DNA of 36,809 bases from an uncultured bacterium (GTDB taxonomy: Bacteria; Bacteroidota; Bacteroidia; Sphingobacteriales; Sphingobacteriaceae): contig CAIMAP010000021.1 of NCBI GenBank assembly GCA_903838995.1, positions 1-36,809 of the forward strand, given 5' to 3'. Of the stretch, positions 3,014-28,875 are shown in pieces; the first letter of the stretch is position 1; the number at the start of each line of letters is the position of its first letter. Under the pieces are notes generated by a model. That model was not told the origin of the DNA, made no database searches, and worked only from the letters and a program-made list of their open reading frames with translations. The position numbers and the translations under genes were made by a program.

Positions 3014-3022
3014 AATTATATT

Positions 3023-9019: not shown

Positions 9020-9044
9020 TCCAATAAATAAAACAATTGGAAAC

Positions 9045-9078
9045 AAAAAAAGGCTCGAACATTGTTCGAGCCTTTTTT
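9045..9078. terminator. Bidirectional Rho-independent terminator
   Basis: Perfect 9-bp stem GGCTCGAAC (9052-9060) / GTTCGAGCC (9064-9072) with loop ATT, flanked by seven A on the left (9045-9051) and six T on the right (9073-9078). It can end transcription of the protease gene from the left and of the eight-gene minus-strand operon from the right, and it fixes the 3' boundary of the glucan locus. Confidence 0.92.
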
Positions 9079-9099
9079 ATGATATATAAATTACAATGA

Positions 9100-11418
9100 T
9101 TAGTTTTTAACTACTCTTGCAACTTTTTCATTTACTTTCACTAAATAAATTCCATTTGTGAAATTTGCTAAGTCAATTGTTCCGTTTGCAGAAACATTTT
9201 GTGTAGCAACTAATTTTCCTTCAATAGAATAAATTTTTGCGATGTTAATTTCATTCACGTTTAAACCTTTTATCGTAACTGTGTTTGCAGTAGGATTAGG
9301 ATAAACATTTAAGCTAACCGCGCTTGTATTATTAATACCTACAGCAGGTTTGCTGAAGTAAACGTTGTCGATATAACAAATACCTGCACCTGTTGGCGCT
9401 CCTGATAAAATAAGTTGAGCAATATGTGATTTGTTGGTCAAGTTAGTAAAGTCAGTTAAAGGAATGTTAAGACTTACCCATCCATTTTGTGTAGGTGTAA
9501 ACGTTAATTCGTGCTCTGTATCATCACCACCACCGTAACCAGCATCAGCACCAAAGTCAACTAATTTAATTCTTAAAGTAGTCATGTTTGGCGTCCATAC
9601 ATCTAAGTTGAAATGAGACATAGTAGAAGCATTGATTAAATTAGCTCCTGTAGTTTCGATACCTACAAAATCTAATGCCGAATATTTTTTTACATCATTA
9701 CCTGCCACTTGCATGTCAGTTAAAGTTGCATTCGACCAAGCAGTTCTCCAAGTATCTACACCCACATTAGTATAAGCATTACTGAACATAGAAATTACAT
9801 TAGCTGCTAATGCAGTAGGTGTAGGTGCTGCAGTAGTTGGCTCTAAAATAGTAGCTGGTTTGCTGAAATAAACATTATCGATAAATACAGTTCCTGTTCC
9901 TGCTGGATTACAAGAGAATATTAATTGAGCAATGTGACCTGTGGTAGTTAATCCAACAAAGTCTGTCAATGGAATATCAAAGCTGTTCCAACCTGCAATA
10001 ATTGGGGTAAAAGATAATTCGTGTTCTTTGTCATCACCACCACCAAAAGCAGCATCAGCACCAAAGTCCACTAATTTAATTCTGAATGTAGTCATGTTAG
10101 GTGTCCAAGCATCTACATGGAATTTAGTCATATTAGCTGCATTGATCAAGTTTGGACCAACGGTTTCAATTCCAACAAAGTTTAAATCAGTATATTTTTT
10201 TGTATCGTTACCAGCAACTTGCACATCAGTTAAAGTAGCCGCAGACCATGAAGTTCTCCAAGTATCTACACCCACATTGGTATAAGCATTACTGAACATA
10301 GAAATTACGTCAGCTGCTAATGCAGTAGGAGTAGGAGCTGCAGTAGTTGGTTCTGTTGCCACAACAGCAGGCTTATCGAAATACACATTATCAATATAAA
10401 CTGTTCCAGCAGCAGTTGGCAAGCCAGAGAAAATTAATTGTGCAATGTGTGCAGTTGTGGTTAGATTAGTAAAATCAGATAAATTAATGTCATAGCTATT
10501 CCAAGCATTTTGCGTTGGTGTAAAAACTAATTCATGGTCTTTATCATCACCACCACCGTAAGCACCATCAGCACCAAAGTCAACTAATTTAATTCTAAAA
10601 GTAGTCATGTTTGGCGTATAGGCATTCACATGGAATTTAGTCATTGCAGATGCATTGATCAAGTTTGGTCCAGTAGTTTCAATACCTACGAAATCTAAAG
10701 AAGAATATTTTTTAGTATCGTTACCTGCAATTTGAATGTCGGTTAATGTAGCGTTAGACCACGAAGTTCTCCATGTGTCAACACCTACATTGGTATAGGC
10801 ATTACTAAACATAGAAATCACATCTGCAGCAGCAGCAGTAGGAGTTGGCGCTGCAGTAGTTGGATCCGAAGAAACAGAACCAGCACCAAAAGTAATGTTG
10901 TCTACATAAGTAATGTTGTCTGTTGTTCTTGCTTGAAAGTCTGGGAAAATAATTATTTGATCATTTGTTTCGCCAACTTTAGTAGCAAAGTTAAAAGTCA
11001 ATTCTTCCCATTGGTTAATTACCGTATTCGCTACTTTAATTTCACCAGTTGATCCACCACTTGCCGTAGCAAATTTAATTCCAACATCAGAAAGTACTGA
11101 TTTGTAAACCATCATTTTAACTACACAGTTTGAAGCAGATAAAGTGAAAGTACCAATACCAGCTCCATGCGAGCTTTCGTAACCAGCCCAAGGCTGACCA
11201 GCTGCAGTAGCTGTAAATTTACAAACAGTTGCTGAACTGTTTATACCAGTTGTGCTTGGGTTTGCAACCATTGTAATAGCAGGGTTTGTTGTGCCATTTT
11301 CAAAAGTTGTCCAAGTCCATGCGTTTCCATATGCACCTGTTTCAAAGGTGATGGGCGCGTTTTGAGCAAATGCCATACTTGATAGCATCATCAAAAATAA
11401 AAAGGAGATTTTTTTCAT
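9100..11418 (-). CDS. Multi-modular secreted (putative glycan-binding) protein with three tandem repeats, T9SS cargo
   Basis: Exported protein of 772 residues with no recognisable catalytic motif. A signal peptide (1-19) precedes a jelly-roll, CBM-like domain (~20-180, with an AGYESSHGAGI region). Three near-identical ~170-residue modules follow (186-356, 357-526, 527-691), each with a Thr/Pro-rich linker PTTAAPTPT, then SMFSNAYTNVGVDTWRT, NMTTFRIKLVDFGAD, a Gly/Asp stretch GGGDDKxHEL and YIDNVYF. A T9SS type A sorting domain lies at ~698-772 (NVYPNPTANTVTI to GIYLVKV). The modules have a beta-sandwich, carbohydrate-binding character, and similar modules occur beside GH16 catalytic domains in Bacteroidota (from memory). 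It is the last gene of the operon, 36 bases after the GH16 gene. Inference: a surface-anchored or released glucan-binding protein. Confidence 0.8.
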   Translation of the reverse strand: MKKISFLFLMMLSSMAFAQNAPITFETGAYGNAWTWTTFENGTTNPAITMVANPSTTGINSSATVCKFTATAAGQPWAGYESSHGAGIGTFTLSASNCVVKMMVYKSVLSDVGIKFATASGGSTGEIKVANTVINQWEELTFNFATKVGETNDQIIIFPDFQARTTDNITYVDNITFGAGSVSSDPTTAAPTPTAAAADVISMFSNAYTNVGVDTWRTSWSNATLTDIQIAGNDTKKYSSLDFVGIETTGPNLINASAMTKFHVNAYTPNMTTFRIKLVDFGADGAYGGGDDKDHELVFTPTQNAWNSYDINLSDFTNLTTTAHIAQLIFSGLPTAAGTVYIDNVYFDKPAVVATEPTTAAPTPTALAADVISMFSNAYTNVGVDTWRTSWSAATLTDVQVAGNDTKKYTDLNFVGIETVGPNLINAANMTKFHVDAWTPNMTTFRIKLVDFGADAAFGGGDDKEHELSFTPIIAGWNSFDIPLTDFVGLTTTGHIAQLIFSCNPAGTGTVFIDNVYFSKPATILEPTTAAPTPTALAANVISMFSNAYTNVGVDTWRTAWSNATLTDMQVAGNDVKKYSALDFVGIETTGANLINASTMSHFNLDVWTPNMTTLRIKLVDFGADAGYGGGDDTEHELTFTPTQNGWVSLNIPLTDFTNLTNKSHIAQLILSGAPTGAGICYIDNVYFSKPAVGINNTSAVSLNVYPNPTANTVTIKGLNVNEINIAKIYSIEGKLVATQNVSANGTIDLANFTNGIYLVKVNEKVARVVKN
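9346..10863 (-). repeat. Three tandem ~510-bp coding repeats
   Basis: Inside the last operon gene: unit 1 is 10351-10863, unit 2 is 9841-10350 and unit 3 is 9346-9840 (shorter, running into the sorting domain). The DNA is highly similar between units; for example, the stretch for the linker and SMFSNAYTNVGVDTW recurs almost base for base near 9780, 10290 and 10800. This points to recent duplication or continuing homogenisation. Confidence 0.9.
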
Positions 11419-11454
11419 AATTGTTTTTTTTAAGTTATTCTTTGATTATTTATT

Positions 11455-12288
11455 TTAATTGGGTAAGTATTTAAAATTTTTAAGGATTATTTCGTGTGCT
11501 AAGCCGTTGTTTGGTGCGGCGCCGTTCAACAACCAAAAATTAAATCGAATTTTTGTTGAATCGCCAGGTGCCGGAATCACCATTGGATCCGAAACCCTAC
11601 TGCCCTCTATTTTAGTTCGGCTAATATTGTTTTTTGTAAACACATGGTGTGAAATTTGTTGCGTGCCAAAAATACTTTCTCCAACATAACTTTTCCAAAC
11701 AATACTGTCTGGCGTCCATTGCATAGTATAGGTACAAGTACTTGCATTGTATTTAGTTGGAATATTGGGTTTGTGCGTGCGTTCTGCATATGGCGCAGGA
11801 TTGCTAAAAATAACTGGTTGTACACTATAAGTTACTGGCAAAGTATCATTTGCATCACCCCATTTTGCAAATTCAATATCTACTTCCGAATTACCAGATT
11901 TTTGGAAAGAGTAATCATCCCAAGTAAAAAAACCAAACACTGTCATGGGGTCAAAATTTCTAATGTCTGTTTCGCAGGTTAATTGATAGGTGCCATAACC
12001 AAATCTTTTGGTACTGACAATTTCACTGCATTGCCAAAATCCATTTTTTTGTTGAATTTTTAAATGCAATTTTTGTTGATTGTCTACCCATGCAGCAGTA
12101 CTATCTCCTAAAAAACGATTAGGGCCTGGACCAACGGGTGTTATTTTGTTTTTGTAATTAAAATAAAAACCCGAAAAATACAAGTCGCCTTTTTCTTCAT
12201 AGATGTTTGCAGGCGCAGACTGTTCGCAGCCATATCCTAGCGCAACCAAAGCAAGTAAACTAAATATTTTATATTTTTTAATTAACAT
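11455..12288 (-). CDS. Glycoside hydrolase family 16 lipoprotein (endo-beta-glucanase-like)
   Basis: Protein of 277 residues with a lipoprotein-type leader ending GYGC (Cys21). The GH16 active-site signature ExDxE is present as E135-V-D137-I-E139 in NSEVDIEFAKWG: Glu135 is the expected nucleophile and Glu139 the acid/base. The upstream segments GYGTYQLTCET and FGFFTWDD fit the jelly-roll strands lining the cleft. GH16 enzymes cut beta-1,3, beta-1,4 or mixed-linkage glucans and galactans internally; the exact specificity cannot be read here. The company of GH3 and the TIM-barrel enzyme favours a beta-glucan. Its start overlaps the end of the GH3 gene by 11 bases, so translation is probably coupled. 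Location: outer membrane or periplasm, lipid-anchored. Confidence 0.88.
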   Translation of the reverse strand: MLIKKYKIFSLLALVALGYGCEQSAPANIYEEKGDLYFSGFYFNYKNKITPVGPGPNRFLGDSTAAWVDNQQKLHLKIQQKNGFWQCSEIVSTKRFGYGTYQLTCETDIRNFDPMTVFGFFTWDDYSFQKSGNSEVDIEFAKWGDANDTLPVTYSVQPVIFSNPAPYAERTHKPNIPTKYNASTCTYTMQWTPDSIVWKSYVGESIFGTQQISHHVFTKNNISRTKIEGSRVSDPMVIPAPGDSTKIRFNFWLLNGAAPNNGLAHEIILKNFKYLPN

Positions 12289-14521
12289 AAATTCTTTTGG
12301 TTTCGTTTTGTATCATTAAATCAAATTCGCCAGCTTCTGTTACTCTTTTTAATTGCTTGTTTACAAATGCCAATTCATTTTTATGAATTTGGAAAGTGAT
12401 TGTTTGTTGCTCGCCTGCTTTTAAGTTTATTTTTTTAAATGCCAATAGTTTTTTAACAGATGGTGTTATGGAAGCAACTAAATCTGCATAATAGATTTGT
12501 ACTACTTCTTTACCTTCTATTTCACTATTATTTTTTACCACTACACTTACTCCAATCGAATCGTTTTCGTTTAAAGTGATTTTAGAGACCGCCATGCCGC
12601 TATAGATAAAGTTACTATAGCTCATTCCAAAACCAAAATCAAATGCAGGGTTGTAGCCTTTGTTACTAAAATCTACATTAATATTTTCCGCATATTTACG
12701 ATCATAATGTAGCAAACTATTGGCATCGGCCGGGTAACTAAACGGTAATTTACCACTCGGGTTTGTTTCGCCACAAATAACCGATGCAATGGCTTTTCCG
12801 CCTTCGTCACCTGGTAAATAGGCATATACAATGGCATCAACTAAAGGGATAATATTTTTTAAAATTCTTGGTCTATTAAAGGTGCAAACTAAAATAATTG
12901 GTTTATTTAATTTGCTCAATGCAAATACCAAGTCTTCTTGTGCTTTTGGTAAATATAAATTATCAATATTTCCTGGTATTTCTGTCGAAGGAGTTTCTGC
13001 TAAACAAATAATAATTTTGTCTGCGTTTTTTGCTTTTGCTAAACAATCATCAATATTAATGATTTGATCAATACTACTGCCTGCAGCGAAGGCAACGCGA
13101 TTGGCGCCAGCAAATTTTTGGATAGCAGCTAGTGTGGTTAATTTATTTTTAGTATTAAAATTAGTATCGACGCCTTGCCATGTATGCGTCCAAGCGCCAT
13201 TTAAATAATTCAAACTATTGGCTCCAGGTCCGCAAACAAAAATCGATTCGTTTTTATTTTTCAGAGGAAGTGTTTGTTTATTATTTTTCAAGAGTGTAAT
13301 ACATTCGCTTGCCACTGCTAAACTTTTTGCAGCATGTTCGGATGAACCAAACAGCGGATACTTGGTTTGGGTATCTTTAGTCTCAAATAAACCTAACTCA
13401 TATTTCAAGGTTAATATTCTGCTTACCGAACTATCAATTCGAGTCATTGGAATACGGCCTTCTTTTATTAATTCAATGAGTAATTCTGTATACTGGTAAT
13501 CGTTCGGTGTCATACTCATATCTATGCCAGCCATAATGGCCATATAAACCGCTTCTTTTTTGGTGGCAGCTACATGGTGCATATCTACTAGTTTATAGAT
13601 GTCTTCCCAATCTGTAACAGCAACACCTTTAAAGCCCAATTCTTTTCTTAATAGCGTAGTTAAAATATCGTAATTCGCATGTACAGGTGTTCCGTTTATA
13701 TCGGCAGAATTGATCATGACTGTTTTGGCGCCTTGATCTATAGCTGTTTTAAAAGTAGGTAGGTAATACTCCCGCATTTCTCTTTCGGAAAGCCAAATTG
13801 GAGTTCGGTCTTTTCCACTCAATGACATGCTATAACCTAAGAAATGTTTCATGCAAGCCGCCACATGGTAAGGACTGTATTTGTTATCACCTTGCAAACC
13901 ATTAATGGCTGCTTTGCTCATGCTATTGGCTAAGCAAACATCTTCTCCAAATGTTTCAAAAAAGCGTGACCATAAGGGTTGTCTGCCTAAATCTAAAACT
14001 GGCGAAAAATTCCAAGGAATTCCAGTTGCCCTAGCTTCGTATGCTGTTACTTCGTAGCCTTGTTTTACTAAGTCGGGGTTCCAAGTTGCTGCTTGTGCAA
14101 TTTGTTGTGGAAATAAAGTGGCACCAATGGTGTAGTTGTTTCCGTGAATGGCATCAATGCCATAAATGACTGGGATCTGTAATTTTGTATTTTTCGTTTC
14201 TGCCCCGATGGCTGCAAATATTTTTTGCCAATTCTCCCGGCTAATTGTACCACTGCCGCAGCCAACATTTAAAAACGATCCAATATGGTATTGATTAATG
14301 GCTTTCTTTAATTTGGCTTGATTAATAGATTGCGGTTGTGTTAAATTGCATACATCGCCATTGGCAATCACACCTAAGTCAAGCTGCGTCATTTCTCCGG
14401 CCTTTTCTTCGATGCTCATTTTGCCAATTAAAGCGGCAATATCAATTTGTTTTTTTTGTGCAAAAACCGTTAGGTTACAAAAAATCAAAGCAAAGAATAA
14501 GGTATTTTTAATGCGATTCAT
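12278..14521 (-). CDS. Glycoside hydrolase family 3 beta-glucosidase
   Basis: Exported enzyme of 747 residues. A signal peptide (1-21) is followed by the GH3 N-terminal TIM-barrel domain with KHFLGYS (from 225) and the nucleophile Asp304 in VAVTDWEDI. The C-terminal alpha/beta domain contains the segment ending NPSGKLPFSYP, and a fibronectin-III-like domain covers the last ~100 residues. Length and domain order are those of standard beta-glucosidases of the BglX type. It should release glucose from oligosaccharides made by the GH16 and TIM-barrel enzymes, probably in the periplasm. It lies one base after the preceding lipoprotein gene in the operon. Confidence 0.93.
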   Translation of the reverse strand: MNRIKNTLFFALIFCNLTVFAQKKQIDIAALIGKMSIEEKAGEMTQLDLGVIANGDVCNLTQPQSINQAKLKKAINQYHIGSFLNVGCGSGTISRENWQKIFAAIGAETKNTKLQIPVIYGIDAIHGNNYTIGATLFPQQIAQAATWNPDLVKQGYEVTAYEARATGIPWNFSPVLDLGRQPLWSRFFETFGEDVCLANSMSKAAINGLQGDNKYSPYHVAACMKHFLGYSMSLSGKDRTPIWLSEREMREYYLPTFKTAIDQGAKTVMINSADINGTPVHANYDILTTLLRKELGFKGVAVTDWEDIYKLVDMHHVAATKKEAVYMAIMAGIDMSMTPNDYQYTELLIELIKEGRIPMTRIDSSVSRILTLKYELGLFETKDTQTKYPLFGSSEHAAKSLAVASECITLLKNNKQTLPLKNKNESIFVCGPGANSLNYLNGAWTHTWQGVDTNFNTKNKLTTLAAIQKFAGANRVAFAAGSSIDQIINIDDCLAKAKNADKIIICLAETPSTEIPGNIDNLYLPKAQEDLVFALSKLNKPIILVCTFNRPRILKNIIPLVDAIVYAYLPGDEGGKAIASVICGETNPSGKLPFSYPADANSLLHYDRKYAENINVDFSNKGYNPAFDFGFGMSYSNFIYSGMAVSKITLNENDSIGVSVVVKNNSEIEGKEVVQIYYADLVASITPSVKKLLAFKKINLKAGEQQTITFQIHKNELAFVNKQLKRVTEAGEFDLMIQNETKRIYVN

Positions 14522-14522
14522 T

Positions 14523-15164
14523 TTACAATCTCACAATTTTAATATCATCTAAATATATTTCTCCATCACCTTCTAGCTGAATGATAAATTGCTTTACTTT
14601 TTCAAGGTCGAAGTTTTTAGATTTAAAATCAAATTTTTTCAAAGGAATACTAACTGTTGTCCAGTTTTCTGAATTAAATTCGCCAGATGCTTGGCTCATT
14701 TGAAAACCAACATAACTTTGCACACCCGAGTAATCTTCGAAAGCAAAAGCAACTGGAAAATTTTTAAAGTTTCCATTCACCGATTTTACTTTCATTTGCA
14801 CTGCGCAGTCTTCACTTACATCTAGCATATCTTTAGCCATCCAGCTATTCCAGCCAAATCCAATACCAATCCATTTGCAGCCACCAGCAATTTTATCCCA
14901 CTTTACTTTTAAGCCAGCCTTCCCATTATATACATAATTTCGTTCTGTACTTAAACTTACACAATTCCGTTCGGGCGAAACCCAAACACTATTATCGTAA
15001 TCATCTTTAAAAATATGAACCGCTTTGAAACCGTTAATTTCTTCTGTATTAATTTGAGCGTTTAGGTCGTATAAAGATTTTTCTTGCACTTGAACCATGG
15101 TGCTACAAGCACTCATTGTAAGTGTGAGTAAAACGAAACTAGCTATGTAAATTATTTTGTTCAT
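14523..15164 (-). CDS. Lipoprotein with beta-sandwich, CBM-like domain
   Basis: Protein of 213 residues with a clear lipobox (TMSAC, Cys20). The mature part is one predicted beta-sandwich domain with KAGLKVKWDK, an aromatic-rich IGIGFGWNSW stretch, and a terminal GEIYLDDIKIV strand. This pattern is shared by CBM11/CIA30-like and other galactose-binding-fold domains. There are no catalytic residues. Its start codon overlaps the stop of the upstream lipoprotein gene by one base, and its stop is one base from the GH3 start. Inference: a glucan-binding lipoprotein that feeds the neighbouring enzymes. I do not recognise a named family with certainty. Confidence 0.72.
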   Translation of the reverse strand: MNKIIYIASFVLLTLTMSACSTMVQVQEKSLYDLNAQINTEEINGFKAVHIFKDDYDNSVWVSPERNCVSLSTERNYVYNGKAGLKVKWDKIAGGCKWIGIGFGWNSWMAKDMLDVSEDCAVQMKVKSVNGNFKNFPVAFAFEDYSGVQSYVGFQMSQASGEFNSENWTTVSIPLKKFDFKSKNFDLEKVKQFIIQLEGDGEIYLDDIKIVRL

Positions 15165-16177
15165 TAAAGGTCTAGCGCTTTATTTTGGGTAAAAGAAATT
15201 AAATCAATTTTACACCTAGCAAAACCCAAATTAGGATCTGCTAATTGCAAGAAAGATATTTTGCCTATTTTATCAGGGTTATGTTGTTTATTACCATTAG
15301 GACTTGCAGGATTTCCATTTACCAAGGTTACGATATCTGCGTATTTTACCGAAACTAATCTCCATCCAATCCAATTTACATCTATGCTGTAATCGTATTC
15401 GTCTTCTTTTGCTGCATCAAAAACACCATCACTATTTTCATCTTCTTTAAATTGAAACAAGGCTTTGGTCATGTTTGTTTTTGGATCTGGATCACCATAA
15501 ATCAAAACGTTAAAATATTCCGCCTCTGGGTTGTTGCTCAAAGGGAAAGTGACATTGTTATTATAAGCATTGGCATTGAAATCGACTAAGCCTATTAACC
15601 AATCCCAATTTACAGTACCACCCATGTTTAAGTATTTTGTACCTTCTGGCGCAAAATTATCTGCTTTAACCAGGCATTCCATGCTTGCGCCAGATTGAAA
15701 AAACTTGGTCCATTTTGGATCTAAGCCATTTTCAAAATTGGCAATCATTCTTGCACCAGTAGGAAGTAGTTTAGTTTTTGATATACTAATAGTAGTGCTT
15801 GCGCTATCGTTTTCGCTAGCGATTAAAAGCGTTGCAGTGCAATTCTCCGTTTTAAATAAAGGGAATAAAGTAGTCGATCCATTCCAAGTGGCATTGCTAG
15901 CATCTATTACTTTACTTTCGCCGCTAATAATTTTTGTTGCTTTTGAAATAGAACCTTTGATGGTAATTTTCCAAGAAACTATTTTATTAAAGCGAGCTGA
16001 AAAAATAGCGTTGCTATTTTCAAAATCTGCCGTTGCTTTATCAACCTTAAATGATTCGATAATCGCAAACTTGCTATTAATTTCATTGATACTTGGTCCG
16101 TCGAAAGTATTTTCTTTCCTGCATGCGCTCAGTCCAATGCTCACTAAGCCAACGAATAATAATAATGTCTTTTTCAT
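15164..16177 (-). CDS. Putative surface glycan-binding lipoprotein
   Basis: Protein of 337 residues with lipobox LSAC (Cys19), followed by RKEN; a charged Lys-Glu patch just after the Cys resembles the surface-export signal described for Bacteroidota lipoproteins. Residues ~35-140 form an Ig/PKD-like beta domain. Residues ~145-337 form a second beta-sandwich with several Trp (NWDWLIGLVDF, VNWIGWRLVSV) and a calcium-loop-like DENSDGVFD. The architecture, an Ig-like spacer and a C-terminal aromatic binding domain, is that of SGBP-type proteins in glycan utilisation loci. It sits between the barrel genes and the second lipoprotein in a tightly packed operon. The glycan-binding function is inferred; the specific family was not recognised. 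Confidence 0.72.
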   Translation of the reverse strand: MKKTLLLFVGLVSIGLSACRKENTFDGPSINEINSKFAIIESFKVDKATADFENSNAIFSARFNKIVSWKITIKGSISKATKIISGESKVIDASNATWNGSTTLFPLFKTENCTATLLIASENDSASTTISISKTKLLPTGARMIANFENGLDPKWTKFFQSGASMECLVKADNFAPEGTKYLNMGGTVNWDWLIGLVDFNANAYNNNVTFPLSNNPEAEYFNVLIYGDPDPKTNMTKALFQFKEDENSDGVFDAAKEDEYDYSIDVNWIGWRLVSVKYADIVTLVNGNPASPNGNKQHNPDKIGKISFLQLADPNLGFARCKIDLISFTQNKALDL

Positions 16178-16178
16178 A

Positions 16179-17906
16179 TTATAATAGAATATTATAGATT
16201 AATCCAAATTGATTGATTTTAAAATCAGCCATAGCTTTATTGTTGATGGTCGACCGATCTTGATAACTGCTTTGTTGTAATAAGGCACATAAATAAGCTT
16301 TAGGGCTAAAATTAATTCGCAAACCCACTGCCGCTATTTGTTGGCTAAGGTTATAATTGCTATTCCTGAAATAAGTGACTTCCGAATATTCGTTTCTTTC
16401 GGTAATAAAACTATTTCCATTATTTTGTTGTTGCACAAAACCCGCTAACAATTCAAGGTCAGGAATAATTTCATAGTTCATGCCCAAGCTTACTTGCAGG
16501 TTTTTATAATCAATATTTTCAGTGGCATAAATACTATTTCTAGTGGTTTGTTGTAAACGCAATCCTAATTGAACTTCGAATTTATTAGCTAATCCGATGA
16601 GTGTATGGAATGGAATTTTGCTATTTAACTTTACTTGGCTAAAAGCTTTCAATGCATCCGAACCTTGACCTCTAATTTCGTTTAATCGATATACTTCTGC
16701 TTGAATATGGATATTGTTTTTGCTTTGGAATTGTAATTTACCATAAGCACCTACTCTATTAAAAGTAGCTAAACCATAAGGTAGAATATCATTAAAAACT
16801 TCGTTCTCCGCAGCAAGCGAGGTGCTGATCGTTCTATTGTAAATATTTTCATTACCAATCATATCAATTAAAGTGATAGGTCTTAATTGTTGATTGTTGG
16901 TAAAGCGATTGAAAAACAATGTTGGTGCATTGTAGTTCACATCTTTGCTTTGCGCTCCAATACTTCTAAAATCTGGGCCTACATTTAAGTAGCCAACACT
17001 AATATTGGTATGAAAATATGCTAAATAAAGTTTAGCATAGGCATTCACGAAATAATCATTTAATACAGGTGCCAAAGTATCTGCCGAATAATTCCAATTG
17101 CTAATACCCGCTTCGCCAGCAAGTTTCAGGGTGTTTTGTGCAATGGCATGATTGATAGACCAATCAAAAGTATGTATGGTATTACTGAATAAATTATTAT
17201 TAGCGGTAGTTGCTTTTAAATCGAAGGTAGAATTGTAGGTATATCCAAAACGGAATTGATTGCTTTGAACAATATTGATATTTCCGCCAGTCATCAATCG
17301 CTCGTTTACATTCGCAAAATTGGTGGCATTTAATCGAGTAACAAAACCATTGAAATTAATTTCTTTTAAGAATTTGGAAAAGCTTAAACCAAAATCAACA
17401 TTGGCACCTTGCATTCTCCAAGTATTATTTTGATAAAATTGTTCGTAAGAAACTATATTTTGTTGCAATTTAAAAACGCTCGGCATGGAATCTAATTGAT
17501 CTGCATGCTGATTGTATAAAGTGAATGGGCTTTGTCTTAAATTTAAATCACCAATTTGGTATCTCAAAGCATTACCAACAACTCCTTTCACCCAAAGCTG
17601 TCTTACATCAAATTGCACACCCGAACCCCAAAAACCACCGTAATTATTTTTAATACGGAACATGCCCATAATTTCGGTTTGTTTATTCGGTTGAATATTG
17701 AAGCCTAAATCGAGTAGCGTATAACCACCATAGTTATTTTTAGCCGTTGTGGTATCTGCAAGCGTATCGCTCACGCTCAGGGCATTGCTAAATACAGAAG
17801 ACCTAGCGCCGCCTATAAAACTAAGCTTCCTTGCTTTTTGTGCATATCCTTGTAAACTTGCTAAAGCAAGTGCAAAGAAAAATATCGTTTTTTTGTTCAT
17901 CATCAT
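16179..17906 (-). CDS. Outer-membrane beta-barrel protein of unknown family (575 aa)
   Basis: Signal peptide ending GYAQ (~residue 22). The rest is an alternating polar/hydrophobic pattern with many Asn, Gln, Tyr and Phe and repeated short strands with aromatic ends (for example YGKLQFQSKNNIHIQAEVYR and LQVSLGMNYEIIPDLELLAGF), ending in FGLIYNILL. This is the look of a transmembrane beta-barrel of roughly 20 or more strands. No TonB box, carboxypeptidase-like N-terminal domain or plug domain was seen, so it is not a SusC. It lies three bases after the other barrel gene and one base before the SGBP-like lipoprotein gene. Inference: outer-membrane porin or scaffold for the glucan machinery. Confidence 0.72.
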   Translation of the reverse strand: MMMNKKTIFFFALALASLQGYAQKARKLSFIGGARSSVFSNALSVSDTLADTTTAKNNYGGYTLLDLGFNIQPNKQTEIMGMFRIKNNYGGFWGSGVQFDVRQLWVKGVVGNALRYQIGDLNLRQSPFTLYNQHADQLDSMPSVFKLQQNIVSYEQFYQNNTWRMQGANVDFGLSFSKFLKEINFNGFVTRLNATNFANVNERLMTGGNINIVQSNQFRFGYTYNSTFDLKATTANNNLFSNTIHTFDWSINHAIAQNTLKLAGEAGISNWNYSADTLAPVLNDYFVNAYAKLYLAYFHTNISVGYLNVGPDFRSIGAQSKDVNYNAPTLFFNRFTNNQQLRPITLIDMIGNENIYNRTISTSLAAENEVFNDILPYGLATFNRVGAYGKLQFQSKNNIHIQAEVYRLNEIRGQGSDALKAFSQVKLNSKIPFHTLIGLANKFEVQLGLRLQQTTRNSIYATENIDYKNLQVSLGMNYEIIPDLELLAGFVQQQNNGNSFITERNEYSEVTYFRNSNYNLSQQIAAVGLRINFSPKAYLCALLQQSSYQDRSTINNKAMADFKINQFGLIYNILL

Positions 17907-17909
17907 TTT

Positions 17910-19829
17910 TTAAAAAAACATTTTTACTTCTACTGTAGTTTCAAATCCCTTGTATTGGTCATTGGCATAACTACTGTCTTGATAATCCATCCAGCGTTGT
18001 CTTAGGTATAATCCCGCCGATTTACTCAACTGTATATCTAAACCTGTTGCAAAACTATAACCCGTTTGATTTTTTGGTCTGCTACTTTGCACATCAATTG
18101 CGGTTTGGTAGTTCGCAATAATTCTTTCGAAACTCAGGTAGTTATTCCAAATTAATTTTGGATTAATAACATAGTAAGATTCTATTTGATGGCAATAATT
18201 ACGCACTAAGGCTCTTTCTGTAAACACCAATAATCCACCATCTTTCAGGCTACTCATACTAGAAAAGTTTTGAACAGAATTAAAGGAACCTAAATAAAAC
18301 AAATACAAATCTTTGTTTGCTAAAATGGTTTTGTATTTTGAATTAATTTCTAGCGTATTGAAATACTTTTTTTGATTCGGCAAACCTGTTGCAGGATTGA
18401 TATCCGTTATATTTAATGTTTCAAAAACATTACGATAAATTTTATTTAGGTTTTTGTATGGACCTACATTGCTTGGAAATCCCCATCTCCAAAATCTCGA
18501 TAAGGCTAAACTATTAAAGGCATGCGAATAAGTAATACCTGGCGAAAGGTTTTCTAATTCCATGGAAGAACTGTAGCCAATAGAATTTTTTAATCTTCCA
18601 AAATTCAATTGCGAATTTATTTCTATTCCTTGTCTGTTATTGGCTAGTTGCCCTATTGGCAAAATAGCACTCGACACCGGAATCAAAACGGCTTGTGTTA
18701 AATTTGAATTAGTTTGAACGCTTTGCTGTATAGAGGAGTTAATAAACACGGCATTATTATTGAAAACGCGCGGGCTTACTCTGTAAAAATGAATTTCTGT
18801 TGGAAATTGATCTGCAATGGGGTAGGCTAGTTTAATAGAAATCGCTTCCCCGTATTTGGTATAGTTTTGATTAATATGGGTATTACCCATCCCAATTTCT
18901 GCCCATATTTTTAATCTTTCAATGTAATGGGTAATTTCTAAAGTGTGCACCGAAAATCCAGTCGTATTTTTAGCAAGGGAATCTAGGTAAGTATTGTTAT
19001 TGAATGAATTGGCCGAAATGGCATTTTGATGTTGCTTGTAAAACTTAGTTAGTTTGCCGCCAAAAGAATTATTAGGTAAAGCAAGCACGCCGCCATCAAA
19101 TTGTGTTTTACCAGTCATTAAACTAAAAGCAAAATCATTTGGTAGTTGGGCGCCGTCTATAATTAAACCTTGAAATGCTTGATTTCCCCAGCGTTGGTCT
19201 TGGTTAATGGCACCCGAGTTAAAAAAATCAACATACCTCGAATCCATCGAGGGTGTATTTGGATCCCATGGATTTCTTTCAAATAAACTGTAACGATTAT
19301 AACCTTTATTAGCTTGAAAAGTAAATGGAGAAAGTAAATGCCAATTAATACCACCCGTTCTAACATTAAAGGTTCCAAATGAGGTATTAAAATTACCAAA
19401 TAAATTTACACCTAAATTGAGTCCTTTCACATTTTCTGTTTGACCTAATCCAGTCATCGGTGCCCACATATATAAGTCGGTACCAAAAGAAGTTTTACTC
19501 GACGCAAAACCTTTAATGTTGAGCATTAATTGTGGAATTTGACTATCGTCGCCTACAAAAATATTTCTTTTGTTATTTTCTAAATGAGGGTAAATAACAG
19601 ACATATCTCTATAGTTTGTAATAAAGCGATAATATCCATTTACTTCTAGCCCTTCTAAAACTGCTTGCGCTGATTTTGGAAATACGCCTTGTGCATTATT
19701 TTCAACCGAAACAATGGTTACTATGGAATCTGCTTTTTGCTTTTCTTTAATTTCAAAAGCATTCGCATACGCAGAAACCCCCGCACTCAGGATATAACTC
19801 ATTAAAACAATTTTTTTCAATTGTCCCAT
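17910..19829 (-). CDS. Outer-membrane beta-barrel protein of unknown family (639 aa)
   Basis: A signal peptide (ending near AYANA, ~residue 24) is followed by ~50 residues and then a long beta-barrel pattern starting at LEVNGYYRFITNYRDM and ending in a typical C-terminal strand with terminal Phe (TVEVKMFF), as expected for BAM-dependent insertion. The first third is rich in Gly, Asn and Trp (MWAPMTGLGQ, FERNPWDPNTPS), which may form extracellular loops. There is no plug domain or TonB box. Gaps to its neighbours are one and three bases. It and the 575-residue barrel are of different lengths and I see no clear similarity between them by eye. Inference: oligosaccharide porin or enzyme-anchoring barrel. 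It is not assigned to a known family. Confidence 0.72.
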   Translation of the reverse strand: MGQLKKIVLMSYILSAGVSAYANAFEIKEKQKADSIVTIVSVENNAQGVFPKSAQAVLEGLEVNGYYRFITNYRDMSVIYPHLENNKRNIFVGDDSQIPQLMLNIKGFASSKTSFGTDLYMWAPMTGLGQTENVKGLNLGVNLFGNFNTSFGTFNVRTGGINWHLLSPFTFQANKGYNRYSLFERNPWDPNTPSMDSRYVDFFNSGAINQDQRWGNQAFQGLIIDGAQLPNDFAFSLMTGKTQFDGGVLALPNNSFGGKLTKFYKQHQNAISANSFNNNTYLDSLAKNTTGFSVHTLEITHYIERLKIWAEIGMGNTHINQNYTKYGEAISIKLAYPIADQFPTEIHFYRVSPRVFNNNAVFINSSIQQSVQTNSNLTQAVLIPVSSAILPIGQLANNRQGIEINSQLNFGRLKNSIGYSSSMELENLSPGITYSHAFNSLALSRFWRWGFPSNVGPYKNLNKIYRNVFETLNITDINPATGLPNQKKYFNTLEINSKYKTILANKDLYLFYLGSFNSVQNFSSMSSLKDGGLLVFTERALVRNYCHQIESYYVINPKLIWNNYLSFERIIANYQTAIDVQSSRPKNQTGYSFATGLDIQLSKSAGLYLRQRWMDYQDSSYANDQYKGFETTVEVKMFF

Positions 19830-19830
19830 A

Positions 19831-21171
19831 TTATTCGTTGAAATTATTCATGTCGGTGTATTTGAATTCAATGAATTTACCTTGAGGTTCATTTGCGCCC
19901 CTAGCTATTACTTTGAACGGAATGTTTGCATAAGCCATTTTGTTTTGATAAGTAACCGAAACAAAAAGCCTATATGCGCCTGCATTTTGTGGTGCTCTAA
20001 ATTTTATTAGATTTTTTTGTGAAGTCTTTTTAATTAATCCAGTTATTTCTGATGCCGCATCTTCCACATCACCGCCCGATTTTTTATCGGTACTTTCTTC
20101 TATAATACGCCAGTTGTAACTTGCTTTTTCCATATTTGCATTTCCTGCAAGTTGAATATTGATATTGGCATCGAAAATTCCAGATGCTTTTAATTCAATA
20201 TTGTCTGTTGCTTTTTGTTGCTCAACCTGAAAGCTTAGAATAGTGGGAGCGGGGTTTGTTAAAACCTTACCGGTAAAAACTTCTTCGAGTGCATCGATGG
20301 GTTCGGTTGGAATATTATTTTTTGAAAACAAGCCATACCATGTTTCGGTATACTCTTGTTTGGCGCCCCATAAAAATGCATAAGAGCCTAAACAAGTATT
20401 GGAATTTTTCTCGATGTAATTTTTATATCGGCTGAAATAGACTTCTTTTTTTTCTGTGCTATTTTGCTCTATCGAAACACCCCATTTAGTTTGTGGTGAT
20501 TCCCAATGACCATTAGGACCCCATTCGGTAATCATATATGGGCCATTCCATCCAAACTTTGCAATATGATTGGGCACATTGCCAATATCACCATAGGTAT
20601 TAATGGAATAAATATCGATATCTGGACAACGAGCGGTAATAAAAGCTACTTCTAAAGAGTCTAAGCCTGCTGTAACCGTAGTGGTTGGATGATTAGGATC
20701 GGTTTCGTGAATGTATTTAGCAATATCTTGAATGGCGTTCCAAACATTCGGGTTGGTATAGTTTAGATCTACTTCGTTCCCCACGCCCCAAATTAATAAG
20801 GCAGGATGGTTTTTAAATCGGTCAATAACAGTTTTAAAATAAGCCAATTGTTTCGCTACTTTTTCTTTATTGTTATAATCGAAACCATGTCTTTCATGTT
20901 GCACCCAAAGACCAAGCATGACTGTTAATCCATTGCGTTGCGCTTCGTCTAATACTTCTTGTGCACGCTCCACACCCCATGTTCTAAGGGAGTTTGCGCC
21001 TATGGCCACCATTTTTTCCATGTTCACATCGCCACCCACACCTTTTATATAATAAGGCTTTCCATTTCTTTGCATTTCAAAACCGTTACTTGTTTTCACA
21101 ACTTTGGTTTGTGCCGCAAGAGAAATTCCTATCAACAAAAAAAGACTTAAAATGATTAATTTTTTATTCAT
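19831..21171 (-). CDS. TIM-barrel glycoside hydrolase (GH158/GH2-C-like, putative endo-beta-1,3-glucanase)
   Basis: First gene of the operon, 446 residues. A signal peptide (1-20) is followed by a (beta/alpha)8 domain (~35-310) with KGVGGDVNMEKMVAIGAN and LRTWGVERA, acid/base Glu133 in WGVGNEVD and predicted nucleophile Glu216 in MITEWGPNG. An Ig-like C-terminal domain follows (~315-430). The fold and two-Glu layout are clan GH-A. The size, the C-terminal Ig domain and the 83-residue spacing of the two Glu match, as I recall them, the Bacteroides laminarin endo-beta-1,3-glucanase of family GH158. A general GH2-type TIM-barrel annotation is the safe alternative. Partners GH16 and GH3 are the same enzyme set known from beta-1,3-glucan loci. 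The start is set by the signal peptide. Confidence 0.78.
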   Translation of the reverse strand: MNKKLIILSLFLLIGISLAAQTKVVKTSNGFEMQRNGKPYYIKGVGGDVNMEKMVAIGANSLRTWGVERAQEVLDEAQRNGLTVMLGLWVQHERHGFDYNNKEKVAKQLAYFKTVIDRFKNHPALLIWGVGNEVDLNYTNPNVWNAIQDIAKYIHETDPNHPTTTVTAGLDSLEVAFITARCPDIDIYSINTYGDIGNVPNHIAKFGWNGPYMITEWGPNGHWESPQTKWGVSIEQNSTEKKEVYFSRYKNYIEKNSNTCLGSYAFLWGAKQEYTETWYGLFSKNNIPTEPIDALEEVFTGKVLTNPAPTILSFQVEQQKATDNIELKASGIFDANINIQLAGNANMEKASYNWRIIEESTDKKSGGDVEDAASEITGLIKKTSQKNLIKFRAPQNAGAYRLFVSVTYQNKMAYANIPFKVIARGANEPQGKFIEFKYTDMNNFNE

Positions 21172-21176
21172 GCTAA

Positions 21177-21191
21177 ATCAAATATAACATT
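21177..21191 (-). promoter_or_regulatory. Candidate -7 promoter element of the glucan operon
   Basis: Read on the minus strand, the sequence is AATGTTATATTTGAT, containing the Bacteroidota -7 consensus TAnnTTTG (21179-21186). The same 15 bases occur in the promoter of the Asp-box protein (32469-32483). The element ends only seven bases before the ATG, so the transcript would start at or beside the start codon. No TTG at the usual -33 distance was found, which lowers confidence. Confidence 0.45.
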
Positions 21192-21444
21192 AAAATATGT
21201 AAAAATGTATTAAATACACTAAGCTATATTTTTTTGATTTAATATATTGAATATCAATACATTGGTCTATTTATTATTAATAAATCAGGGTTAGACGATC
21301 AATGCCTTAAAATCCTTCGGATTAAAATAAATCATTCAAAAATGCTATAAGCCAACTATATAACATGTCAAATTGACTTCTTGTTTTTTTATTCTTATTT
21401 AATGTTCAAATAAAATATATTTACAATTCAATCAATTAAAATAT

Positions 21445-23118
21445 ATGCAACAAAACAATCCTTCCAATGCTGCAAAAATGCAAGCAACAAATTACGGCGC
21501 ATTAAGTACCCTTATTACCGTATTTTTTTTCTGGGGCTTTATTGCTGCAGGAAATGGTGTTTTTATTCCTTTTTGTAAAGATTATTTCCACCTCGATCAA
21601 TTTCAAAGTCAATTAGTCGATTATGCATTTTATGTAGCTTATTACATTGGCGCATTAGTTATTTTCATGATCAGTAGTGCTACTGGAAAGGATTTGGTTG
21701 GTTCTTGGGGTTACAAAAAAAGTATCGTTTATGGCTTATTGTTTAGTGCAATTGGCGCAGTTGCTATGATTATTGCAGTAAATGCAAATACATTTGCAGG
21801 CATGTTGGTTGGCTTATTTATAGTTGCACTTGGCTTTAGTTTACAGCAAACTGCAGCCAATCCATTTGCCATTTCATTAGGCGATGAATCAACTGCAACA
21901 GGAAGAATAAGTTTAGGTGGTGGAATCAATAGTTTTGGAACCATGATTGGTCCAATCATTGTTTCTTTGCTTTTATTTGGTACAGCTGCAGCAACAGAAG
22001 AACAAACAAAAAATCTGGGTTTAAATAATGTGAGTTTTATGTATGCCGGTGTTGGCGCCTTGTTTATTGCCGCCGCCGCATTATTTAACTTTAGTAAAAA
22101 AGTGCCAGCAGGCTTAAATATCGAAAAGCAAGAACCTGCAAATAAAGCATTGAATGTTTTATTAGTCATAACAGGGCTATTAATTTTCATGTTTATTCCA
22201 GTGTTTAAAAGTTATATTGGATTAGCCACAGATTTATCTGCATCACAGCAATATGATTTAGAATTGTATCGATTCAAATGGTTATTAGGCGCATTGTTTG
22301 TGATTATTTTCGGCATGTTATTTTCTTTTCAATCTGCCAAAAAAAATCCACATGGTTGGGGTGCCATGCAATATCCTCAATTGGTATTAGGCATGTTAGC
22401 CATATTCACTTATGTAGGTGTAGAAGTAGCTATACAAAGTAATTTAGGTGAATTATTAAAACAAGATTATATGGGAGGTTTTGCCTCTTCTCAAATCTCT
22501 CCTTATATCAGCATGTATTGGGGAAGTTTAATGATTGGTAGATGGGCCGGAAGTATCAATGTTTTCAACTTGTCTAATCAAATCAAACGTTTATTATTAT
22601 TGGTGGTGCCATTGCTTGCGTTCGGTATAATTATTGGCGTGAATGTATTGGCGCAAAAAGACATGTCGCCTTTATATGCCTATGTACTTTGCGTAGCCAT
22701 ATTAATTGCCGCATTTTTTATCTCAAACGATAAACCCGTTAAAACTTTATTAACCTTTAGCGCATTAGGAATTGTTTCTATGTTAATTGGTTTGTTTACA
22801 CAAGGACAAATTGCAATTTATGCATTATTGAGTGGCGGTTTATGGTGTAGTATTATGTGGCCAAGTATATTCAGTTTATCATTGGCTGGTTTAGGAAAAT
22901 ACACTACCCAAGGTTCTGCATTTTTAGTGATGATGATTTTAGGCGGAGGAATTATTCCACCACTACAAGGTAAGCTAGCCGATATGATTGGCATTCATCA
23001 GTCTTATTGGGTTACGGTCATCTGCTTTACTTATATCGCATTTTTTGCCATCGCGGTTAAAAGAATTTTAACCAAGCAAGGAATCGAATACGATAGCCCT
23101 GCTACAAGCGCACATTAA
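21445..23118 (+). CDS. FucP-like MFS sugar permease
   Basis: Inner-membrane transporter of 557 residues of the fucose/glucose/galactose:proton symporter (FHS) type. The N-terminal segment [21 protein letters not shown] and the downstream [16 protein letters not shown] and [15 protein letters not shown] are characteristic. It is longer than the ~430 residues of classical FucP. The extra length is central (about residues 230-310) and contains two further hydrophobic stretches ([18 protein letters not shown] and [15 protein letters not shown]), giving about 14 predicted helices. It diverges from the glucan operon, so it most likely imports the glucose released by the GH3 enzyme. The start was chosen just before the hydrophilic leader; the gene ends at a strong terminator. 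Confidence 0.88.
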
Positions 23119-23159
23119 AAAAAAGAGCGGTCAATAATCATTGGCCGCTCTTTTTTTTT
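23119..23159. terminator. Bidirectional Rho-independent terminator
   Basis: A 12-bp stem, AGAGCGGTCAAT (23124-23135) / ATTGGCCGCTCT (23140-23151) with one G-T pair and loop AATC, flanked by an A run (23117-23124) and nine T (23151-23159). It lies between the convergent permease and thymidine kinase genes and can serve both. Confidence 0.92.
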
Positions 23160-23171
23160 GAAAGAAAAAAA

Positions 23172-27148: not shown

Positions 27149-27952
27149 ATGGGTAAGATCATTGCGTTAGCAAACCAAAAGGGGGGCGTTGGAAAAACAA
27201 CTTCGTCTATCAATTTAGCAGCAAGTTTGGCTGTTTTAGAATATCGCACACTATTAGTAGATGCCGATCCTCAAGCCAATGCGACTTCAGGAATTGGTTA
27301 CGATCCTAGAGAAATCAAAGCGAGTATATACGAGTGCATTATCAATAGTGTTGAACCTAGAGATGCAATCTTAGCAACCCATACACCAAACTTAGATTTA
27401 TTACCTGCCCATATCGATTTAGTGGGTGCCGAAATAGAAATGATCAATTTACCCGATCGAGAACATAAAATGAAAGAAGTCTTTGCAAAAATCAAAGACC
27501 AATACGATTTTATTATCATCGATTGTTCACCATCGTTAGGCTTAATTACTATTAATTCCTTAACTGCTGCCGATTCGGTCATTGTGCCGGTTCAATGCGA
27601 ATATTTTGCACTAGAGGGTTTAGGTAAATTATTAAACACCATTAAAATTGTACAATCAAGGTTAAATCCAAATTTACAAATCGAAGGCATTTTACTAACC
27701 ATGTACGATGTCAGATTGCGTTTATCAAATCAAGTAGTCGAAGAAGTAAGAACACATTTTCAAGGCTTAGTATTTGATACCATCATTCAAAGAAATACGC
27801 GTTTAAGTGAGGCGCCAAGTTTTGGAGTGTCTGTTATTATGCACGATGCATCCAGTAAGGGAGCGATTAATTACCTCAACCTTGCCAAAGAAATTTTGCA
27901 AAAAAACGGTTTAACCAAAGAAGTAGAAAACACTGATTTAAAAAATAATTAA
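27149..27952 (+). CDS. parA: Chromosome partitioning ATPase ParA (Soj)
   Basis: Protein of 267 residues with the deviant Walker A KGGVGKTT (11-18), the LLVDADPQANAT switch and the FIIIDCSPSLGL Walker B strand, all classic for chromosomal ParA. It uses ATP-dependent DNA binding to move ParB-parS complexes and segregate origins. Its stop codon shares one base with the parB start (TAATG at 27950-27954), so translation is coupled. First gene of the conserved parA-parB-DUF5683-dapB-lepB run. Confidence 0.97.
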   Translation: MGKIIALANQKGGVGKTTSSINLAASLAVLEYRTLLVDADPQANATSGIGYDPREIKASIYECIINSVEPRDAILATHTPNLDLLPAHIDLVGAEIEMINLPDREHKMKEVFAKIKDQYDFIIIDCSPSLGLITINSLTAADSVIVPVQCEYFALEGLGKLLNTIKIVQSRLNPNLQIEGILLTMYDVRLRLSNQVVEEVRTHFQGLVFDTIIQRNTRLSEAPSFGVSVIMHDASSKGAINYLNLAKEILQKNGLTKEVENTDLKNN

Positions 27953-28875
27953 TGAGTAGCGCAACGAAACGAAACGCTTTAGGGAGAGGTCTTGGAGCAT
28001 TATTAACTGATAACGATATTGTGAATCCTAAAAGTACAGGGTTGCCTCCAATTGTTTCCAATAATAACAGCATCGATAGCATTGATATCAATTTAATCGA
28101 AACCAATCCTTATCAGCCCCGCGATACTTTCGAAACAGAAGCTTTGAAAGAATTAGCAGCTTCTATAAAAGCACAAGGAATTATTCAACCATTAACCGTT
28201 AGAAAATTATCGAATAATGCGTATCAATTAATTTCTGGCGAACGCAGATTGCGCGCCAGTAAATTAGCTGGTTTAACCGAAGTGCCGGTTTATATTAGGG
28301 CTGCGAATGATCAAGAAATGTTAGAAATGGCATTGATTGAAAACATACAAAGAGAAAATTTAAATGCCATTGAAGTAGCCATTTCATTTCAACGCATGTT
28401 AGATGAATGCAGTTTAAAGCAAGAAGAATTAGGCGATCGGGTAGGAAAAAATAGGTCGACCGTTACCAATTATTTGAGACTATTAAAGTTGCCACCCGTA
28501 ATTCAGGCTGCCTTAAGAGATTCAAAAATATCGATGGGTCATGCAAGGGCAATGATCTCTATGGACTCTATAGATAAACAGTTGTATGCCTTCGAAGAAG
28601 TTTTAAAGAATGATTTATCGGTTCGTAAATTAGAAGATTTAGTGCGCAGCATGTCTGATAAAAACACAATTAAATCAACCGATAAAACAAAGAGTCCTGC
28701 AGCCAAAGCAGAACAAGCATTTTCTTCAGAATACCAAAGAATTCAATCCGATTTAGCTGCCAAATTTGATGCTAAAGTTAGTTTGAAAGCAGATAAAAAC
28801 GGGAGCGGAAATATTCAAATTCCATTTATTTCTACCGATGATTTAAATAGAATATTAGAAATGTTAGATTGGTAA
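27952..28875 (+). CDS. parB: Chromosome partitioning protein ParB (Spo0J)
   Basis: Protein of 307 residues. The N-terminal GRGLGALL motif that contacts ParA is at 11-18. The ParB/Srx nuclease-like domain has NPYQPR and the CTP-binding GERRLRASKLAG, followed by IENIQRENLN and a DNA-binding HTH region (VGKNRSTVTNYLRLLKLP). A short C-terminal dimerisation region ends the protein. It binds parS and slides on DNA as a CTP-dependent clamp. I did not see a CACGTG-centred parS in this window. Confidence 0.97.
   Translation: MSSATKRNALGRGLGALLTDNDIVNPKSTGLPPIVSNNNSIDSIDINLIETNPYQPRDTFETEALKELAASIKAQGIIQPLTVRKLSNNAYQLISGERRLRASKLAGLTEVPVYIRAANDQEMLEMALIENIQRENLNAIEVAISFQRMLDECSLKQEELGDRVGKNRSTVTNYLRLLKLPPVIQAALRDSKISMGHARAMISMDSIDKQLYAFEEVLKNDLSVRKLEDLVRSMSDKNTIKSTDKTKSPAAKAEQAFSSEYQRIQSDLAAKFDAKVSLKADKNGSGNIQIPFISTDDLNRILEMLDW

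Follow-up and report, generated by a model that had tools for sequence, protein, structure and literature searches.

A predicted beta-1,3-glucan locus of Bacteroidota without SusC/SusD, centred on a conserved pair of putative outer-membrane barrels

How might a member of the Bacteroidota take up a beta-glucan by means of a locus that encodes neither SusC nor SusD? The question is raised by a stretch of 36,809 nucleotides (the window; contig CAIMAP010000021.1, our C21, of assembly GCA_903838995.1, an uncultured freshwater bacterium of the Sphingobacteriaceae with a genome of 2.0 Mb in 214 contigs), in which eight minus-strand open reading frames (ORFs; 9100-21171) and a divergent permease gene (21445-23118) form a locus around two genes for predicted outer-membrane proteins, here named OMP-A and OMP-B. 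We consider it likely that this locus is the beta-1,3-glucan member of a substrate-diversified, SusC/SusD-independent type of locus marked by the barrel pair, which would import the glycan. The features are listed below, the operon in its order of transcription (glycoside hydrolase, GH; carbohydrate-binding module, CBM; surface glycan-binding protein, SGBP; type IX secretion system, T9SS; major facilitator superfamily, MFS).

19831..21171, minus strand: GH158 endo-beta-1,3-glucanase-like protein, 446 amino acids, signal stretch without Cys by eye (PDB 9oro, 6pal)
17910..19829, minus strand: OMP-A, putative outer-membrane barrel without recognisable plug, 639 amino acids, CHU_1276 homologue (BLASTP to the first gene of locus L245)
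16179..17906, minus strand: OMP-B, putative outer-membrane barrel without recognisable plug, 575 amino acids, CHU_1277 homologue (BLASTP to the second gene of L245)
15164..16177, minus strand: lipoprotein, 337 amino acids, CHU_1278 homologue, predicted glycan-binding (BLASTP to the third gene of L245)
14523..15164, minus strand: CBM30/SGBP-B-like lipoprotein, 213 amino acids (Pfam CBM30, E 3e-7; SGBP_B_XBD, E 6.4e-6)
12278..14521, minus strand: GH3 beta-glucosidase-like protein, 747 amino acids, signal stretch without Cys by eye (Pfam GH3, E 1.3e-73)
11455..12288, minus strand: GH16 beta-glucanase-like protein, 277 amino acids, lipoprotein by eye (Cys past the signal stretch; Pfam Glyco_hydro_16, E 6.5e-7)
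9100..11418, minus strand: secreted protein, 772 amino acids, with CBM11-like stretches and a T9SS C-terminal sorting signal (Pfam CBM_11, E 4.4e-8; Por_Secre_tail, E 2.2e-12)
21445..23118, plus strand: MFS sugar permease of the gluP/fucP kind, 557 amino acids, divergent from the operon (NCBIfam gluP, E 6.6e-53)
9045-9078, either strand: hairpin with T runs on both strands, putative terminator between the operon and a convergent protease gene (fold z -8.0 and -6.8)
23119-23159, plus strand: hairpin with T run, putative terminator after the permease gene (fold z -7.1)

The packing of the eight genes is very tight, the intergenic gaps being 1, 3, 1, -1, 1, -11 and 36 bases in order of transcription, and both ends of the locus are marked by hairpins followed by T (-20.8 kcal/mol, z -8.0, within 9040-9085; -24.8 kcal/mol, z -7.1, within 23115-23165), neither of which was listed by a simple terminator scan. 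The ORF coordinates and fold energies thus bear out a first-pass annotation of this DNA, made from the letters alone, which had described packed minus-strand genes and a divergent permease between strong terminators; its assignment of GH16, GH3 and GH158/GH2-like enzymes to the locus agrees with the Pfam and PDB sequence matches, which for the last point to GH158.

The same annotation had stated that SusC and SusD are missing, and indeed Pfam and NCBIfam scans of the window proteins detected in the locus neither a SusC-type transporter with a plug domain nor a SusD-type lipoprotein. Elsewhere in this genome, contig C106 carries a SusC/SusD pair within a starch locus that also encodes GH13 enzymes, and C99 carries a second pair, beside genes that look phosphonate-related by eye, these two contigs being the only ones with SusD-type proteins; it is therefore this locus, not the genome, that lacks them. 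The two SusC-type receptors that pass the cut-off and the other TonB-dependent receptor candidates of the genome would be compatible with the idea that the barrels assist a TonB-dependent transporter whose gene lies elsewhere, which would make the locus SusC/SusD-light instead of independent, but the two pairs stand in the company just described, and across 76 regions read around barrel genes (defined below) the SusC profile gave a single match near a cassette (L048, about 5 kb upstream) and the SusD profile none, both being home-made profiles grown from two seeds each that may miss distant members. We regard this accessory role as improbable.

As regards the barrels themselves, no confident Pfam or NCBIfam model was found for either, the sole Pfam entry under E 1 being Beta-prism_lec on OMP-B (E 0.12, below cut-off); no match to a plug or TonB-dependent receptor occurs in the ten window proteins scanned or in nine homologues of each barrel, and profile searches of both families against PDB sequences returned nothing credible. 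OMP-A and OMP-B show no detectable relation to each other (hhalign probability 1.2%). The AlphaFold2 models, built from four-row alignments, are poor (pLDDT 47 and 44) and are used for no specific claim; they consist of beta-strands throughout (about 22 and 20) and lack a globular plug at the N-terminus. OMP_b-brl is matched weakly by three of the nine OMP-B homologues (best E 6.5e-4); together with the weak models, this suggests that both proteins are barrels. A Foldseek search with the OMP-B model gave weak generic matches to sugar porins. The earlier description of the two as plug-less and unlike SusC has thus survived every sequence test run, while their supposed membership in an unrecognised family has to be given up, CHU_1276 and CHU_1277 of Cytophaga hutchinsonii being experimentally studied homologues. 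That the pair may work without TonB, as the first-pass annotation proposed, is suggested solely because no plug can be recognised; as a definite statement it is not supported. With the OMP-A model, Foldseek returned generic outer-membrane barrels, AlgE and LptD among them, which lends some colour to a reversed reading, in which the locus builds or remodels the cell's own surface beta-glucan and the barrels export it; however, Pfam and NCBIfam scans detected no glycosyltransferase family in the operon, where hydrolases, binding proteins and a sugar permease are found instead, and the homologous cluster serves cellulose use according to the available text of PMC12016534. Export is, in our judgement, very improbable.

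The available part of PMC12016534 describes chu_1276-1280 of C. hutchinsonii as an "atypical PUL" (polysaccharide utilization locus) whose genes encode two proteins of the outer membrane, two of glycan-binding type and an endoglucanase. CHU_1276, CHU_1277, CHU_1279 and CHU_1280 are important for cellulose use, growth on cellulose being reported to require the locus, and SusC/SusD are not involved as far as that text goes; the paper and reports the cluster in two other cellulolytic species also. Our locus L245 has the gene order OMP-A, OMP-B, lipoprotein, 375-residue protein, GH9, and the 375-residue protein carries W89, F92, F180, Y253, F256 and F343, in agreement with the numbering of CHU_1279 there; because gene order, length and the six aromatic residues agree, L245 is taken to be the C. 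hutchinsonii cluster. By BLASTP, OMP-A of the window matches its first gene (CHU_1276) at 28% over 693 columns (E 2e-60), OMP-B, which begins 3 bases downstream of OMP-A, its second (CHU_1277) at 30% over 600 columns (E 2e-77), and the 337-residue lipoprotein, directly after the barrels and matched by no Pfam or PDB entry, its third (CHU_1278) at 29% (E 5e-34). CHU_1280, periplasmic in earlier reports and found also in the extracellular fraction (PMC6247017, in the portion seen), may offer a loose parallel for the window GH158.

The homologues extend well beyond this species. An OMP-A scan gave seven loci. Five of them (L021-L024 and L027, some being contig fragments) come from near relatives and agree with the window in gene content and order, at 79-99% identity. 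In L025, from a metagenome-assembled genome (MAG) labelled Bacteroidales, the order is kept from GH158 through the two barrels and the two lipoproteins to GH3 and GH16, at 48-63%; in L026, from a MAG labelled Flavobacteriales, it is kept at 35-47% as far as the second lipoprotein, GH3 being encoded close by on the opposite strand. In a sample of 395 genomes of the phylum, four-row profiles found OMP-A in six and OMP-B in seven, six genomes being common to both; the seventh OMP-B match is weak (G590, 22 bits) and was regarded as noise. Five other regions from this sample contain the barrel pair and the lipoprotein, as well as CBM30-like and GH158 genes, save L047, where the contig ends. GH158 itself occurs in 47 of the 395, all six OMP-A genomes included, a co-occurrence to which chance would give a probability of 2e-6 for independent genomes; these are not independent, four of the six belonging to one order. 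That GH158 loci generally have such barrels was also considered and rejected: of the 41 genomes with GH158 but no OMP-A, 34 supplied 35 regions, and none of the 35 holds the pair (four-row profiles). Since the SusC profile matched in five of these 35 and the SusD profile in two, most of the GH158 genes in these regions do not lie beside SusC/SusD either.

Larger profiles widened the distribution: a nine-row OMP-A profile matched 10 of 114 genomes in the order of G573 and 75 of 199 in that of G443, and a 27-row profile, built without any genome from the order of G642 or the family of G1063, detected the family in 5 of the 48 genomes of the former and 17 of the 19 of the latter. In the window's own order a single-protein OMP-B search matched only 3 of 400 genomes, all of its own genus, which together with the OMP-A tree described below suggests acquisition of the cassette by this genus; among plasmids, OMP-A had no tblastn match. 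For gene-by-gene reading, 76 regions were assembled from the window, L022, L023, L025, L026 and the other order and family scans (32 of the 75 genomes in the order of G443, 8 of the 10 in that of G573, 5 of 5 in that of G642 and, for the family of G1063, 9 of its 17, two genomes being shared by these last two lists). ORFs with many X, that is masked stretches, were omitted from two of the ORF lists. The order of the unit is strongly conserved: OMP-B comes next after OMP-A in 73 of the 76 OMP-A ORFs, the exceptions being two contig ends (L218, L223) and a weak 46-bit match (L225), and a CHU_1278-type lipoprotein follows in 69 of these 73; of the remaining four, three are at contig ends and one has an OMP-B gene that is split (L254). 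The L225 ORF (2152-4110), weakly OMP-A-like and beside an ORF that looks like hemE by eye, is the sole copy without OMP-B that is not at a contig end. Genome G1098 (L250-L253) has 12 OMP-A matches, some of them pieces of one gene or contig-end fragments, and several cassettes.

What changes from copy to copy is the enzyme. Within the scored span, GH158 accompanies 38 of the 76 copies (eight of them with a sulfatase too), a sulfatase without GH158 six, GH9 four and a GH5 mannosidase-like gene two; counting also GH3 and CBM-type genes, 62 of the 76 have a recognised glycan gene. The pair is thus not found mainly outside glycan loci, an outcome that would have spoken against the first-pass annotation. 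The barrel-pair cassettes of L220, L247 and L251, which have GH5 mannosidase/mannanase-like enzymes, are probably (galacto)mannan loci, a label given because L247 matches an exo-beta-1,4-mannosidase (E 1.2e-96) and L220 endo-mannanases (E 8.3e-37), and because the neighbouring genes include one for a ROK kinase in both L220 and L251, one for a mannose-6-phosphate isomerase in the former and one for an alpha-galactosidase in the latter. Sulfatases were confirmed by Pfam in L162, L164, L171 and L183. Divergent cassettes beside sulfatases, with no GH158 in the span, are seen in L164, L166, L168 (second copy), L171, L197 and L217, five of the six also with GH3 and four arranged in tandem with a cassette of the GH158 kind; near those of L164 and L171 there are T9SS-sorted CBM4_9 proteins. 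These GH158-less cassettes probably serve a sulfated glycan. Eight GH158 cassettes (L162, L170, L172, L173, L183, L194, L195 and L196) have sulfatase genes in their span, and their substrate may be a sulfated or mixed glucan.

This variation is mirrored in the OMP-A tree. It was made from 70 of the 76 rows (those shorter than 540 residues, scoring below 100 bits or containing over 10 X were dropped, as was the near copy L022, which was left out of the GH158 tree too); 52 rows carried a label and 18 none, L180, L181 and L190 having been relabelled GH158 for a gene just beyond the scored span and L251 hand-labelled mannan from its neighbours. Each of the four labelled groups falls on one side of a branch, with three changes, the fewest possible; support is 100/94 for GH9, 100/100 for mannan and 100/100 for sulfatase, that for GH158 being weak (65/60). 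L178, L179 and L189 form a small branch of this tree, in which L179 and L189 have GH3 and CBM30-like genes and no GH158 in the stretch fetched. In the GH158 tree, from which matches under 300 residues were left out, a single branch (support 96/89, present in 98% of 200 bootstrap trees) separates the nine barrel-linked proteins from 40 non-barrel rows representing 39 genes (one G573 gene enters twice, from L046 and L116). A second GH158 of another branch lies some 4-10 kb from the cassette-type one in G573, G612, G624 and G732 (L046, L115-L118); in G612 both GH158 genes are on contig C89 and the barrels on C49.

Among PDB sequences the window GH158 matches 9oro best (titled "Glycoside hydrolase family 158"; E 3.8e-88), 6pal giving E 1.2e-69, and its N132-E133 and E216, assigned as catalytic by motif, not from a structure, are invariant in six of six aligned sequences; an Asn-Glu pair and a Glu are the catalytic residues named for BuGH158 in the part of PMC7157763 available. 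Similarity of the catalytic domain and these residues together place the enzyme in GH158. A GH9 match is absent from the window locus, in which the hydrolases are GH158, GH3 and GH16. The GH3 protein matches NCBIfam BglX at E 5.9e-132, under the model cut-off, and the permease scores 180 bits against gluP, for which the cut-off is 202.55.

On these grounds the following path may be proposed. The T9SS-sorted CBM11-like protein and the two lipoproteins would hold the glucan at the cell surface, where the GH16 lipoprotein would cut it; the two barrels, which probably form a complex with the lipoproteins, would let the oligosaccharides into the periplasm; GH158 and GH3 would there finish them to glucose, and the MFS permease would take the glucose in. 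Gene content, homology, gene order and the lack of SusC/SusD are direct observations; we infer from them the localisations, the import through the barrels, the exact substrate and the complex. The SusC/SusD-independent glucan uptake put forward in the first-pass annotation therefore stands in part: the locus has no SusC/SusD and the C. hutchinsonii homologues matter for cellulose, the uptake itself being inferred. The inner-membrane sugar importer differs among loci: an ORF similar in appearance to the MFS permease occurs in L186 (10295-12127), and a sodium:solute symporter (Pfam) in L045 (12824-14512), with a similar-looking ORF in L026 (3844-5496).

Several observations weigh against import by a substrate-specific barrel pair. 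The structural models are poor and their Foldseek matches generic; the CBM30/SGBP-B-like protein in slot four, the place of CHU_1279 in the C. hutchinsonii cluster, gives only E 0.083, not significant, in direct comparison with CHU_1279; a structure prediction of CHU_1276 retrieved TonB-dependent transporter hits (PMC12016534, in the text available); and in 26 of the 76 copies the span shows none of the recognised partner genes (GH158, GH9, GH5-mannan or sulfatase). Among these 26, GH158 lies slightly beyond the span in three and a GH3 or CBM-type gene is present in 12; 14 lack GH3, GH16 and CBM-type genes as well, five of them on contigs that end close by, which leaves nine, mostly from the family of G1063 and from G1078, not explained by a contig end. 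Moreover, CHU_1276 and CHU_1277 are important for cell-associated beta-glucosidase activity, as stated in the portion of PMC5553014 seen, and this could mean an organising role and not transport. Together with the finding that the physical presence of CHU_1279 outweighed its cellulose binding (PMC12016534, same portion), it speaks for the main rival explanation, namely that the barrels are outer-membrane scaffolds which assemble or present surface enzymes and lipoproteins, sugars entering by another way. Two large barrels without detectable relation to each other, kept together in 73 of 76 cases with partners for different sugars, nevertheless fit a substrate-specific pore better, and the scaffold is held to be unlikely, though less so than the other alternatives.

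Around the locus, a subtilase gene with a T9SS sorting signal (6140-9019) converges with the operon and shares with it the 9045-9078 hairpin; farther away are a ParA-ParB pair (27149-28875) and a signal peptidase gene (30193-31293). A sensor of propeller or Y_Y_Y type (Pfam; 143-3643), about 5.5 kb past the operon end, is a possible regulator, as are sensors in L025 (5409-8300, by eye) and L045 (16090-18960; Pfam, propeller or Y_Y_Y type); LacI-like ORFs (by eye) lie near the cassettes of L046-L049.

As to what is new, the atypical cellulose cluster is already in print (PMC12016534) and one laminarin PUL of an NS4 MAG is said to lack susCD (PMC10108472), both as given in the parts of the papers available; no report was found, in the open-licence literature (most subscription journals lying outside), of the spread of the cluster to beta-1,3-glucan, mannan or sulfatase loci. 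An isolated puzzle, the use of cellulose by C. hutchinsonii without SusC/SusD, is here tied to a family present in at least two classes of the phylum, and since locus finders for Bacteroidota use SusC/SusD as marker, such loci would be missed, including those for beta-1,3-glucans such as laminarin. A more far-reaching view, which we put forward tentatively and give slightly less than even chances, is that the pair with its own lipoproteins represents a second phylum-wide outer-membrane glycan importer besides SusC/SusD, plug-less and TonB-independent, with branches for beta-1,3-glucan, cellulose, mannan and sulfated glycan, the C. hutchinsonii cluster being one twig.

Among known systems, chu_1276-chu_1280 is the closest: there as in the window, homologous genes for OMP-A, OMP-B and the lipoprotein follow one another in one order, the adjoining gene encodes a surface glycan-binding-type protein, the cluster includes a glucan hydrolase and, to judge from the text available, SusC/SusD are lacking. 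It differs in that GH158 lies upstream in the window whereas the C. hutchinsonii GH9 lies downstream, in that the window adds GH16, GH3, the MFS permease and the CBM11-like secreted protein, in a slot-four protein that is not detectably homologous and in the predicted substrate, beta-1,3-glucan in the window as against cellulose. The 1,3GUL of Bacteroides uniformis (BACUNI_01484-01490; PMC7157763, in the part available) resembles the window in having GH16, GH158, GH3 and an SGBP-B protein for beta-1,3-glucan, but it possesses SusC and SusD homologues, while the window has neither and has the barrel pair. Finally, the outer-membrane sugar porins (maltoporin, sucrose porin, chitoporin) have in common with the predicted window barrels a barrel without plug and the weak Foldseek matches, whereas the window barrels are longer, paired and accompanied by surface lipoproteins, and the OMP-B profile matches no PDB chain.

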